Source: Synechococcus sp. PROS-9-1
GTDB lineage: Bacteria; Cyanobacteriota; Cyanobacteriia; PCC-6307; Cyanobiaceae
Direction: 5' to 3'
NCBI RefSeq assembly: GCF_014279775.1
Contig: NZ_CP047961.1
Location: 1,550,001 to 1,614,000 of the forward strand
DNA: 64,000 nucleotides
Below are positions 94 to 63,532 of this stretch, piece by piece. The translations under genes and the position numbers were made by a program. The notes beneath the pieces were generated by a model that made no database searches, was not told the origin of the DNA, and saw only the letters and a program-made list of their open reading frames with translations. The number at the start of each line of letters is the position of its first letter. The stretch's first letter is position 1.

Positions 94-621
94 TCAACGC
101 ATAATTTCCACTGCCATCCCCACTTCCACGTGGTCATACAGCTGCTGAACATGCGCATTCAACATGCGCACACAGCCGTTGGAGACGGCCGCTCTGGTTT
201 TCACCCAATGAGGCCAGGGAGTGCCATGAATGCCGAATTGATTGGGTCCACTTCGCAAGAACCCAATCCAGCGATGCCCCAACGGGCTTTGAGGACCACG
301 TTTGGGATGCAGCTTCCCTGACTTAGTGCTCTGGTACTGAGGGTTCATCATCATGTTCTCGACCTTGAACACCCCAGAAGGTGAAGGGGTCGCGGGATCA
401 CCAATCGCTACAGGCCATGGGCCAAGGGTCTGGCCCTGTCGCACAACACTGATTTGCCTGCGGCCCAGATTCAACACAACACGCCCCTGTTCTGGCGGAC
501 GAACAGCCATCGTCACTTGGATGGACTCTGATCGAGACAGCGCGGGAGCCGCCACGAGAAGAGAGGAGGCGAGCAACGCAACTGGAAGAGCAGGAACGCA
601 AGCAGTGCATTTGAGACCCAT
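94..621 (-). CDS. L,D-transpeptidase (YkuD family), secreted
   Basis: Predicted periplasmic enzyme that cross-links peptidoglycan stem peptides or attaches proteins to them. The frame is open upstream to 681, but the ATG at 621 is preferred because it is followed at once by a hydrophobic signal-like segment ending in AAPALS. The protein is then 175 aa. The YkuD catalytic signature is complete: IHGTP with His at about residue 132, and SNGCVRM with the nucleophilic Cys at about residue 150, followed by the conserved Arg. Length is usual for a single-domain YkuD protein. The gene stands alone and converges with hemC. Confidence 0.85.
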   Translation of the reverse strand: MGLKCTACVPALPVALLASSLLVAAPALSRSESIQVTMAVRPPEQGRVVLNLGRRQISVVRQGQTLGPWPVAIGDPATPSPSGVFKVENMMMNPQYQSTKSGKLHPKRGPQSPLGHRWIGFLRSGPNQFGIHGTPWPHWVKTRAAVSNGCVRMLNAHVQQLYDHVEVGMAVEIMR

Positions 622-748
622 TGGTGGACAACCAAGACTCACTGGTCTCAACGTATGCACTGCGCGACAAAAAAACCGCACACTGCGATGAGTGAAACCT
701 TAAGGATTCAAGAAATGTGCGCCCAAGCTCCAACCCATCAAGACTGGA

Positions 749-919
749 ATGAAGAACCAACCATCCTGGCCTGAAGAGGACGCAAAGCTGTTCTTACAAG
801 CCATGCACAAAGTGGGCTCCATGGGAGGCATTGCAGAGATTGAGCCCATCACTTTGGAAATGATGGAGCCATCTAAAGGGCATCGAGCCTGCAGATTTAT
901 CAGAAAAAACATCCGATAA
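749..919 (+). CDS. Small hypothetical protein (56 aa)
   Basis: A short open frame from ATG at 749 to TAA at 917. It begins MKNQPSWPEEDAKLF and ends in a basic tail (CRFIRKNIR). No signal peptide or membrane segment is seen, and I do not recognise the family. The composition is protein-like rather than random, and no better gene covers this interval. A real short gene is plausible but unproven. Confidence 0.35.
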   Translation: MKNQPSWPEEDAKLFLQAMHKVGSMGGIAEIEPITLEMMEPSKGHRACRFIRKNIR

Positions 920-971
920 AAAGAAACGCGAGCAACTCCTTCAAATCCTCATTCTTCTTTCTTATGTTGAC

Positions 972-1067
972 ATGAAGGTTGAGATGAAGGTTGAGATGAA
1001 GGTTGAGATGAAGGTTGAGATGAAGGTTGAGATGAAGGTTGAGATGAAGGTTGAGATGAAGGTTGAC
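972..1067 (+). repeat. 12-bp tandem repeat, 8 copies (ATGAAGGTTGAG)
   Basis: Eight consecutive copies of a 12-bp unit, perfect except that the last base of the final copy is C. The unit is a multiple of three, so one frame reads MKVE repeated eight times. Every unit carries an in-frame ATG. Copy number would be expected to vary by slippage without changing the frame. Confidence 0.97.
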
Positions 1068-1607
1068 CCGAGGAGGGTAGCTGTTGTCGATAACTTTGCA
1101 GAGCAGCTAGAGATTCATCCCAATACAATCAAAGGCCTGCATCGAGTTCGAGACAATCACATAAAGTGACTTCTAATCGATTATGGACGCAGGAGTCTAG
1201 GCGAGTTTCTAGGCCTCGACTCAGCGCCGAAAGTGATTAAAGGTGTGATCACAATGTTCCATCAATCCATCGGAGATTGGGCTGTTTACGAGCGCTACCA
1301 GCAATGAGAGGCCTATCCAGAAGGCAGCCTGGGGCACACTGTTCATTGGTACCGGGATAGGAATTGGGCACTACCTGGAGATAAAAAAAGCACGTCTGAA
1401 TTGCTCTTAAATCACGATTGCTTCCACATCCTCGGTGGATTTATTACAGACGACCAAGGCGAAATCAATGTAGCGGCATTTAAGGCCGGGCTTTTTGATG
1501 ATAGTTTTGGCTTTGAATCTCTTCTCGGAGTTGTCCGCGACTTTCACTTAGGGAGAGCTTTCAGTACTGTTGGAGATATCATTCTACCCTCCTTGATCCT
1601 CTTTTAA
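972..1607 (+). pseudogene. Coq4-like gene, decayed: one frame broken by two TGA codons
   Basis: The frame that begins in the MKVE repeat runs to TAA at 1605-1607, interrupted only by TGA at 1167-1169 and at 1305-1307. The first section ends with an HTH-like tail (FAEQLEIHPNTIKGL). The last section contains LNHDCFHILGGF and then GEINVAAFKAG. This matches the HDxxH...GE metal-binding signature of Coq4, the ubiquinone-biosynthesis scaffold or decarboxylase family, which has short homologs in bacteria. A stretch with GSLGHTVHWYRDRNWALPG, typical of the region before the motif, lies between the second TGA and the HDxxH. I read this as a pseudogene. Translation of a truncated product from TTG at 1401 is possible but less likely. 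Confidence 0.6.
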
Positions 1608-1636
1608 TTAAGCCCTAAATCAACTTCTAAGCAATA

Positions 1637-1691: not shown

Positions 1692-2279
1692 TCAGTCAAC
1701 CAACTTTGGATCGATGTCAGTCATGTAGCGAGCTTCGCAGCTCTTGATAATCTCCACAGCTTTTTCGGTGCCGAAAAATCCATTCACCGTGCAGGTTCCT
1801 GGCTTTTTCAAATCCTTGTAGTGCTCCCAGTAGTAAGTGGTTTCCTTTTTCCATTGCTCACCAAGATCTTCAAAGCTCTTGATGTGATCAACACGCTTGT
1901 CATCGGCCAAAACGGCGATCACCTTGTCATCAACCTCACCACCATCATCAAAGGTCATGATCCCGATGATCCTTGCTTCCACGATCGAACCCGGAATTAA
2001 GGGTTCGGTCACATTCACGATCTCAATATCGAGAGGATCTCCGTCCTCATCCCAGGTGCGAGGAATACAGCCATAGGCGAAGGGGTAAGCCAGAGAGGAG
2101 TAGCCAACCCGATCCAACTTGAGATGGCCTGTTTCCGTAATGAGCTCGTACTTGTTGATCGTGTTGGAGTTGAGCTCCACGATGGTGTTGAGGCGTAGCT
2201 CAGCCTCATCAGCAAAGGCCGGCAGCACATGAAGCAAGTTGGGCATGCTGCGGCTTGGAGCCTGGTCGAGATTGGCCAT
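1692..2279 (-). CDS. ppa: Inorganic pyrophosphatase
   Basis: Soluble family I pyrophosphatase that hydrolyses PPi to two phosphates and so drives biosynthetic reactions. The protein is 195 aa. The signature is visible: DEDGDPLDIEIV supplies the catalytic Asp cluster, KYELITETGHLKLDR holds the early substrate-binding residues, and EHYKDL the later Tyr-Lys pair. Length and motifs fit the bacterial family, with an N-terminal extension before the core. The terminator at 1637-1661 lies just downstream. Confidence 0.95.
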   Translation of the reverse strand: MANLDQAPSRSMPNLLHVLPAFADEAELRLNTIVELNSNTINKYELITETGHLKLDRVGYSSLAYPFAYGCIPRTWDEDGDPLDIEIVNVTEPLIPGSIVEARIIGIMTFDDGGEVDDKVIAVLADDKRVDHIKSFEDLGEQWKKETTYYWEHYKDLKKPGTCTVNGFFGTEKAVEIIKSCEARYMTDIDPKLVD

Positions 2280-54925: not shown

Positions 54926-57673
54926 GTGGCGAACACCCTGGTCATCGTTGAGAGCCCCACAAAGGCCCGCACCATCCGTGGATTCCTTCCGAAGGGCTAT
55001 CGGGTGGAAGCTTCGATGGGCCATGTGCGGGATCTGCCGAACAACGCAAGTGAGATCCCTGCAGCTCAAAAAGGTCAGAAGTGGGCCAACCTCGGAGTCA
55101 ACACTGAGGCGGACTTCGAACCCCTTTATGTGGTTCCGAAGGACAAGAAAAAAATTGTGCGCGAGCTCAAAGACGCCCTGAAGGGCGTTGATGAACTCCT
55201 GCTAGCGACTGACGAAGATCGAGAAGGGGAAAGCATCAGTTGGCATTTGCTCCAGCTGTTGTCACCCAAGGTCCCCGTGAAACGGATGGTGTTTCACGAG
55301 ATCACGAAAGAGGCGATCTCCCGGGCACTCGATGACACGCGTGAGCTCGATATGGAGCTGGTGCATGCCCAGGAAACCCGAAGAATCCTCGACCGATTGG
55401 TGGGCTACACCCTCTCGCCCCTGTTGTGGAAGAAAGTTGCCTGGGGGCTTTCGGCCGGACGTGTTCAATCCGTAGCTGTCCGTCTGCTCGTGCAGCGAGA
55501 GCGGGCTAGACGAGCCTTTCGCAGTGGAAGCTATTGGGATCTGAAAGCTGCACTCGAACAGCAGAGCATCCGCTTTGATGCCAAGCTCACGCACCTCGGC
55601 GGGACGAAAGTCGCCACCGGCAATGATTTTGATGAAAGCACCGGAGGCCTCAAGCAAGGCAGCAAGGTGCGCCTCCTGAGCGAAGACGATGCTCGCTCCC
55701 TATCGCTTGCTCTTCAATCGTCGGATTGGAACGTCTCCTCCGTTGAGGAAAAGCCCACGGTGCGCAGGCCCGTTCCGCCGTTCACCACCAGCACGCTGCA
55801 GCAAGAATCAAATCGCAAATTGCGTCTGTCAGCGCGGGAGACGATGCGCTGCGCTCAGGGCCTGTATGAACGCGGTTACATCACCTACATGCGCACCGAT
55901 TCGGTGCATCTCTCCGATCAAGCCATTACGGCTGCACGCAGCTGTGTGGAATCGCGCTACGGCAAGGAGTATCTGAGCAACGGGCCCAGGCAGTTCAGCA
56001 CCAAGTCACGCAATGCTCAGGAAGCCCATGAGGCGATCCGACCTTCTGGGGAGAGCTTCCGAGCCCCCTCCGAAACTGGCTTGGAAGGGCGTGATTTGTC
56101 TTTGTACGAGCTGATTTGGAAACGCACAGTCGCTAGCCAAATGGCAGAAGCCCGACTCACCATGCTCGCGGTGGACCTCACGGTTGGAGAAGCCCTGTTC
56201 CGTTCCAGTGGAAAGCGCATTGATTTCCCCGGCTTTTTCCGCGCCTACGTCGAGGGCAGCGATGACCCTGATGCGGCTTTGGAAGGTCAGGAAGTGTTGT
56301 TGCCCGCCCTGAACGTTGGCGATTCACCCAAGGTTCATGAGGTTGAAGCTCTCGGACACCAAACCCAGCCGCCCGCTCGCTTCAGCGAAGCCTCCCTGGT
56401 GAAAATGCTGGAGAAAGAAGGGATCGGTCGTCCTTCCACCTACGCCAGCATCATCGGCACGATCGTGGATCGTGGCTATTCCTCGCTCAACAACAATTCG
56501 CTCACCCCAAGTTTCACAGCCTTTGCTGTGACCGCTCTGCTTGAGGAGCACTTCCCCGATTTGGTGGATACCGGATTCACTGCCCGCATGGAAACCACCT
56601 TGGATGAAATCTCCACCGGGAAAGTGCAATGGCTGCCTTATTTGGATGGATTTTTCAAAGGCGATGAAGGACTGGAGTCCCTGGTCCACAAACGTGAGGG
56701 AGACATCGACCCTGGAGCGTCACGCACGATTGACCTCGAGGGCTTGCCGTGCGTGGTCAGGATCGGTCGCTTTGGGGCCTATCTCGAATCCAAGCGCGTT
56801 GGTGACGACGGAGAAGAGGAGCTGATCAAAGCAACCCTTCCAAAAGAGATCACCCCTGGTGAACTGGATCAGGAACAAGCAGAACTCATCCTCAAGCAAA
56901 AGGCGGATGGTCCAGAAGCGCTCGGTGAGGATCCAGAAACGGGTGATCTTGTTTATTTGCTCTTCGGTCAGTACGGCCCCTATGTGCAAAAGGGTCAGGT
57001 CAGCGACGAAAACCCCAAGCCGAAACGGGCCTCCTTGCCGAAAGGAGTGAAGCCCGAAGAGCTGAAACTTGATGATGCGCTCGGGCTACTGCGCTTGCCC
57101 AGGCTCCTAGGCGAACATCCAGAGAGCGGAAAGGTTCAGGCTGGCTTGGGTCGCTTTGGCCCCTACGTGGTTTGGGACAAAGGAAAAGGCGAAAAGGACT
57201 ATCGCTCCCTCAAAGGCGAAGACGAAGTCCTTGCCGTTGGTCTCAGTCGAGCCCTGGAACTACTCGCCATGCCAAAGCGGGGCCGAGGGGGAAGGACGGC
57301 GCTAAAGGACCTTGGCAAACCGGAGGGAAGCGAAGAGACCGTGCAGGTCTTCGATGGCCCCTACGGCCTCTATGTCAAACAGGGAAAAGTGAATGCTTCA
57401 TTGCCTGAGGGCAAAGGGGCCGACGACATCACCCTGAAGGAAGCGATCGAACTCCTCGACGCAAAAGCCGCCACAAAAAAAACCACGAAACGCAAAACCT
57501 CAACAACCAAAAGCACCAGCAAAGCCAAAAGCACCACCAAGGGTGAAACCGCCAAGGGCACAACCGCCAAGGGCACAACCGCCAAACCTGCTGCCCGTAA
57601 AGCACCGGCAATGACGAAGACCGGGCGCCTTCGCGCGAGTGCCGTGCGCGTCATCCGTCCTGGTGACGCTTAA
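54926..57673 (+). CDS. topA: DNA topoisomerase I
   Basis: Type IA topoisomerase that relaxes negative supercoils. GTG at 54926 ([20 protein letters not shown]) is the family start; upstream GTG would add 23 residues of no known role. The Toprim domain has DEDREGE, and the active-site Tyr lies in [13 protein letters not shown]. The C-terminal part has topo C-repeats and a low-complexity Lys/Thr/Ala tail (about residues 850-915) that should bind DNA. 915 aa. First in a five-gene plus-strand chain. Confidence 0.96.
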
Positions 57674-62828: not shown

Positions 62829-63491
62829 ATGTTCACGGGTCTAGTGCAAGCTGTTGGTCGGATTGAACGCCGCGGCAGTGGCCTCGTCGTGAGTGGCTGC
62901 GCTCCGTTCGCTCCCCTTCAGCTGGGGGACAGCGTTGCCGTCGATGGCGTCTGTCTCACGGTGGCGGCATTGGTCGGTGATGGATTTCTCGCCAATGTCA
63001 GCGAGGAAACGCTGCAACGCAGCACACTCGGACGCAAAGCATCTTCTGGCGGTTCGGTCAATTTGGAGCCAGCCCTCCGCTTGTCGGATCGCCTTGGCGG
63101 ACATCTCGTGAGTGGTCATGTCGACAGCATCGGCGAGGTGGTGGGCATCGAAGCCCTTAGCCAATCCTGGAATCTCGAGCTGCGCTGGCGAGATGCCGCC
63201 TATGGCCGGTACATCTGTGAAAAAGCCAGTGTTGCTGTCAATGGCATCAGCCTCACGGTGGCAGGGTGTGCCGATGCTGGCGCGCGATTTTGGATCGCCG
63301 TGATTCCTCACACCTGGATGGCCACGGCATTGCGCGATCTCGCACCAGGGGATCAAGTGAATTTAGAAATCGATCTTCTCGCTCGCTATACGGAACGCTT
63401 GCTCGACCACGCGCGGGAGGGAGCGCCAACCACCCCTGGAAACCACAGCTCTCTGAGCTCTGAATGGCTCGCCTCCAACGGTTGGAGCTGA
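62829..63491 (+). CDS. ribE: Riboflavin synthase (alpha chain)
   Basis: Dismutates two 6,7-dimethyl-8-ribityllumazine molecules to riboflavin. ATG at 62829 (MFTGLVQAVGRIERRGSG) gives 220 aa, the family length. The two tandem lumazine-binding repeats are visible (GDSVAVDGVCLTVAALVGDG and ASVAVNGISLTVAGCADAGA), with GGHLVSGHVDSIGEVVGIEA between. The last codons fall in the 13-bp repeat that follows. Confidence 0.95.
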   Translation: MFTGLVQAVGRIERRGSGLVVSGCAPFAPLQLGDSVAVDGVCLTVAALVGDGFLANVSEETLQRSTLGRKASSGGSVNLEPALRLSDRLGGHLVSGHVDSIGEVVGIEALSQSWNLELRWRDAAYGRYICEKASVAVNGISLTVAGCADAGARFWIAVIPHTWMATALRDLAPGDQVNLEIDLLARYTERLLDHAREGAPTTPGNHSSLSSEWLASNGWS

Positions 63492-63532
63492 AGGTTGGAG
63501 CTGAAGGTTGGAGCTGAAGGTTGGAGCTGAGG
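63481..63532 (+). repeat. 13-bp tandem repeat, 4 copies, at the 3' end of ribE
   Basis: Unit GTTGGAGCTGAAG repeats four times, with one change in the last (GAGG). The unit is 13 bp, so copies shift frame relative to one another, but the first copy holds the ribE stop TGA (63489-63491), so the protein ends before the repeat matters. The repeat lies between ribE and the DUF308 gene. Confidence 0.95.

Follow-up and report, generated by a model that had tools for sequence, protein, structure and literature searches.

The window, by which we mean the whole 64,000-nucleotide stretch of Synechococcus sp. PROS-9-1 analysed here, carries near its beginning a damaged reading frame that stands between two genes on the opposite strand, one that we take to encode an L,D-transpeptidase-like protein and one that presumably encodes inorganic pyrophosphatase (Table 1). 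Mechanical prediction places three short open reading frames in the interval, of 56 aa (749-919), 65 aa (972-1169), and 68 aa (1401-1607). A preliminary description, made from the letters alone, had singled out positions 972-1607 as a Coq4-like frame, and translation confirmed that these 212 codons, closed by a TAA, contain two TGA codons and no other internal stop, and that the Coq4 signature, HDCFH followed by GEINV, lies in their last third. Those limits nevertheless omit the true 5' part of the gene (749-971) and the remnant of its native stop codon (1616-1618).

Table 1. Features of the Coq4-like locus and its neighbours, in window positions unless a genome position is given; G024 is an intact relative.
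Feature	Position	Strand	Basis or remark
Neighbour, open frame of 195 aa (taken as L,D-transpeptidase-like)	94..681	-	adjoins the site in relatives too
Native start ATG and codons 1-39, original frame	749..865	+	tblastn with G024 protein, residues 1-40, 85% identity
Profile match for native 5' part	genome 1550749-1550877		profile positions 1-43
Junction of 41-bp out-of-frame deletion, placed to within a few bases	865..866	+	eight-copy alignment
Native codons 54-88, in the frame of the ORF first described	867..971	+	tblastn, residues 54 onward; profile positions 54-99
12-bp tandem array, 7 x ATGAAGGTTGAG + ATGAAGGTTGAC	972..1067	+	+84 bp in frame
Native codons 93-125, including the segment first called HTH-like	1068..1166	+	alignment with intact orthologs
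First TGA, codon 126	1167..1169	+	Arg codon in 5/5 intact copies
Second TGA, codon 172	1305..1307	+	Leu codon in 5/5 intact copies
Junction of 3-bp in-frame deletion, approximate placement	1343..1344	+	eight-copy alignment
Remnant of Coq4 metal motif HDxxH-x11-E (here HDCFH...E)	1413..1463	+	motif as defined in PMC9774615
Junction of 148-bp deletion	1591..1592	+	eight-copy alignment
Native 3' end remnant	1592..1618	+	match to G024 and G027 3' ends
Accidental stop TAA, from frame shift	1605-1607	+
Native stop position, TAA	1616-1618	+
Neighbour, 195 aa (presumed inorganic pyrophosphatase), synteny anchor	1692..2279	-

A search with the read-through product returned matches in 27 of the 31 genomes of the genus (own genome included), and the five best outside its own genome were 82-85% identical in open frames of 330-370 codons that had no internal stops. 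Two relatives that carry this locus are entitled Synechococcus and are marine. The pyrophosphatase gene served as the synteny anchor: 29 of the 31 congeneric genomes (again including its own) encode a relative 94-100% identical to it, the exceptions being G015, with none, and G026, with a distant one only. When the 29 anchored stretches, extending 1.5 kb to each side, were searched by tblastn with the intact G024 protein (E up to 1e-4), a Coq4-like gene was found in 17, unbroken in 14 and broken in 3 (the window genome, G000, together with G021 and G027); for two of the unbroken loci, in G013 and G016, the stretch contained residues 7-325 only. No Coq4-like gene was found in the other 12 stretches at that distance and threshold, and the L,D-transpeptidase-like gene was present in the stretch at every one of these 12 loci. 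Two of these 12 genomes (G010 and G029; loci L020 and L019) do have a relative with 36% identity on the far side of the pyrophosphatase gene, some 1.5 kb away from it, where nearly all of the match falls beyond the interval covered. Further, a profile built from ten intact orthologs matched in 56 of 151 family genomes, an even draw from a larger group, with many of the matches distant. Within G000, no second copy was detected at E up to 0.001, and the matches of the same profile (A1) were three pieces that all belong to this locus. The comparison with Coq4-like proteins of related Synechococcus proposed in the preliminary description thus found unbroken orthologs at the syntenic position, and those that align without gaps or stops (G001, G006, G007, G014, and G024) are 82-85% identical to the window product.

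Lesions were located in a MAFFT alignment of eight copies, all placed in one orientation, relative to the G024 coding sequence (978 bases with the stop). In these coordinates, the window copy has lost 41 bp at 118, 3 bp at 553, and 148 bp at 804 and has gained 84 bp at 265; it also has stops at codons 126 and 172. The 148-bp loss took out some 49 of the final 58 codons and shifted the frame. None of these six lesions is present in the seven other aligned copies, and G007, G001, G014, and G006 have neither a gap nor a stop relative to G024.

The 84-bp insertion enlarges a 12-bp tandem array. The array comprises seven exact units of ATGAAGGTTGAG and an eighth that ends in GAC, so that the eight exact units first described are eight in number with one a variant, and GTTGAC stands directly before the first. 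Tandem Repeats Finder delimits the array at 966-1066, with a period of 12, 8.4 copies, and 98% matches, and an exact double unit of 24 bases occurs, genome-wide, inside this array only. Each of the seven other copies has one unit at the site, written GTTGAC-ATGAAG-GTCGAC in G024 and with small differences in the other six. Since the unit is single in the other copies, the array is an in-frame expansion of native codons (seven units, +84 bp, within the native stretch YVDMKVDPR, also written DMKVD), and the sequence that follows it is native protein, aligning with the intact orthologs without gaps. The preliminary description had supposed a repeat and an HTH-like segment to have taken the place of the 5' part. 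That replacement was rejected, as tblastn, the profile, and the alignment all recovered the native 5' part, with its start at 749 and its first 39 codons still in frame as far as the 41-bp deletion, and the supposed replacement segment is itself native in the gap-free alignment. The native protein may resemble a helix-turn-helix protein, given that Pfam HTH_60 gives weak matches, somewhere along the protein, in 4 of 10 intact orthologs (best E 0.0054). The array would have arisen by replication slippage, seeded by native 6-mers that differ by one base and start 12 bp apart, such as the outer two in GTTGAC-ATGAAG-GTCGAC of G024. An ATG heads the native frame and every repeat unit. A phase-variable switch operated through the repeat was rejected by reasoning, because 12-bp units leave the frame unchanged. 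The window holds two other tandem arrays, one at 63480-63530 (13 bp x 3.9, 100% matches) and one at 57547-57585 (15 bp x 2.6, 100% matches).

That both internal stops are TGA had been considered notable and is, at most, weakly unusual: for two nonsense substitutions placed at random in codons 1-272 of the intact G024 copy, the chance that TGA results both times is about 0.09, and the pair therefore needs no special cause. A functional gene in which TGA is recoded as Trp, selenocysteine, or another residue would account for the identity of the two stops, and a tRNA-Sec model does have one hit in the genome over its gathering score (48.6 versus 47 bits). ARAGORN, however, reads that hit as tRNA-Ser(tga), none of the best 8 of the 21 tRNA-Sec hits listed has a TCA anticodon, these eight being ordinary tRNAs, and 5 of the 14 genomes used as controls also have a hit over the model's threshold. 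It had been proposed to ask whether the TGA positions align with Trp, Cys, Arg, or Gly codons; in all five intact copies the first aligns with Arg (CGA, codon 126), as one of those named, but the second with Leu (CTA/TTA/TTG, codon 172). Since the two residues differ, recoding to one residue is excluded, and a gene that also carries frame-shifting deletions of 41 and 148 bp offers neither the single residue type nor the otherwise unbroken frame of a selenoprotein or other recoded gene. On the codon alignment and these deletions recoding was ruled out, and we regard it as vanishingly improbable.

Substitutions private to one copy were counted by parsimony, with no tree and no codon model, over 257 codons that are gap-free in all eight copies; in such counts close pairs (G006 and G021) mask each other's changes. 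The window copy has 32 private substitutions, distributed roughly evenly by codon position (8/13/11), of which 23 are nonsynonymous (two stops included) and 9 synonymous, compared to 23 nonsynonymous and 43 synonymous for the five intact copies summed (Fisher p = 0.001). The observed 72% nonsynonymous falls at the edge of the neutral expectation of 72-78%. Additionally, 21 of the changes in the window copy (stops included) are at residues invariant in the five intact copies, while each intact copy, compared with the other four, has 2-5 such changes. The intact G007 copy counts against a reading of relaxed selection, with a fairly even split as well (6/5/5; 9 nonsynonymous, 7 synonymous). The substitutions in the window copy fit an absence of purifying selection, and with 17 to 1 and 10 to 2 private nonsynonymous to synonymous changes, respectively, the G027 and G021 copies look unconstrained as well.

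Sequencing or assembly errors in an intact gene would have to account for six distinct lesions together with 32 private substitutions that occur at all three codon positions; the adjoining pyrophosphatase gene of the same genome has 2 private changes, both synonymous, and the genome is a single contig of 2.27 Mb that is 99.98% complete. Error was rejected on the number and spread of the lesions and is, in our estimate, exceedingly unlikely. Somewhat less remote, but still very unlikely, is the suggestion that the fragments act as independent, functional small genes, such as one for a 65-aa protein headed by (MKVE)8 at 972-1169. The short open frames do exist mechanically. Against this, substitutions are near neutral over the remnant taken as a whole, the array occurs in the window copy alone among the eight aligned, and all 14 unbroken loci have the gene as a single frame.

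We conclude that positions 749-1618 almost certainly hold the decaying, non-functional remains of a 325-aa Coq4-like gene, a conclusion drawn from comparative sequence evidence. The pseudogene proposed in the preliminary description is borne out by unbroken orthologs in place, by the four indels and the two nonsense codons, and by relaxed selection; its description as young is relative, given that 32 private substitutions have accumulated in 257 codons. On this reading it is an ordinary unitary pseudogene, its stop codons the result of decay rather than of a special code: the disabling lesions (the 41-bp and 148-bp deletions and the two stops) are absent from all five intact copies, purifying selection is absent by the parsimony counts (23 to 9), and a search at E up to 0.001 found the gene nowhere else in the genome. 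Counting against this assignment, H, D, H, and E of the motif survive, and translation from the ATG of the native frame or of the repeat units could yield short products (56 aa starting at 749, 65 aa at 972). The gene would have stopped mattering in this lineage, after which lesions accumulated, and the frame would look open simply because few stop-making mutations have occurred so far.

Two of the close copies are broken by other lesions. The G027 copy has 2-bp and 1-bp deletions and stops at codons 138, 188, and 193, and in the G021 copy 9 bp have been inserted and 1 bp deleted, and codon 120 is a stop. The three broken copies (G000, G021, and G027) have no lesion in common, which suggests three separate losses, and the gene thus seems to have been lost repeatedly. 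On the pyrophosphatase tree the label 'broken' needs three changes, of which the well-supported branches force two only, and G000 and G027 may share an earlier silencing that left no trace in the coding sequence. Inside the broken G021 copy (locus L041), a run of 22 G extends from position 1009 where the close relative G006 has GGGGGAGAAAAAAA, reflecting either G-tract slippage or an assembly fault. Being broken in 3 of 8 close copies by unshared lesions, the Coq4-like gene is a candidate for a niche-dependent function. A combined scenario, in which such a role brings changing selection across the genus and the remnant in this strain, through its repeat expansion, is now translated as a (MKVE)8 small protein, would have very little probability. 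The locus matters little except for annotation, where its reassessment keeps TGA recoding from being claimed in error and establishes the true limits of the gene. Among the titles and abstract openings retrieved for Coq4 in cyanobacteria and for pseudogenes and gene loss in marine Synechococcus, none dealt with this gene.

'Coq4-like' is right as a description of the intact protein, and formal membership in the family is not reached by score. The Pfam Coq4 cut-off of 22.9 bits was not attained by G024 (15.6), G023 (18.8), or the more distant G029 relative (20.9), these three being the intact relatives for which bit scores are shown; with an E threshold of 1, all ten orthologs give a match (best 0.00096). 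H209, D210, H213, and E225 are invariant in 10/10 aligned intact orthologs, and the window copy keeps all four, with Phe at codon 212 and Ile at codon 219 in the motif region differing from all five intact copies. Other resources gave faint signals: TerB (PF05099) over the N-terminal part at E 0.27 for the window (12 bits, cut-off 24.4) and at E up to 1 in 2/10 orthologs (best 0.099); no NCBIfam match for the window query and weak ones for orthologs (myb_SHAQKYF in 5/10, best E 0.018; CpsA in 1/10, E 0.077); and no PHROGs match for the one ortholog searched. A single-sequence structure model of an intact ortholog had a mean pLDDT of 34.8, and the best solved structure for profile A1 was 3msq ('Putative ubiquinone biosynthesis protein'), at an E of only 0.28. 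Elsewhere in G000, two other Coq4 matches over the Pfam cut-off, at 2137617-2138225 (+) and 764201-764635 (-) (L064 and L065), each fall in an uninterrupted open frame of 226 codons. To judge by the motif, the ancestor of the window copy was most likely a metal-binding protein and may have bound a lipid too, as Coq4 does.

Three comparisons place the window copy among known sequences. The copy of Synechococcus sp. AG-686-F08 (QCVQ01000016.1, taken as G014) shares the neighbours and, wherever the window copy survives, the protein, which is 85% identical to the window product, but differs in being unbroken, with one MKVD unit and 325 aa. That of the Synechococcus sp. SP2 MAG (JAVBIX010000053.1, taken as G027) is, like the window copy, broken at the same locus, but there the damage consists of deletions of 2 bp and 1 bp and of three stops, one TAA and two TAG. 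Coq4 itself (PF05019) is exemplified by Nostoc Alr8543 (PDB 6E12), and its metal motif defined, in PMC9774615, and PMC10783134 describes a Coq4 in a biosynthetic cluster. The intact orthologs share the HDxxH-x11-E motif with this family; compared to the 221 positions of its model, they are 325 aa long and the three scored fall below the cut-off, and the window copy is broken.
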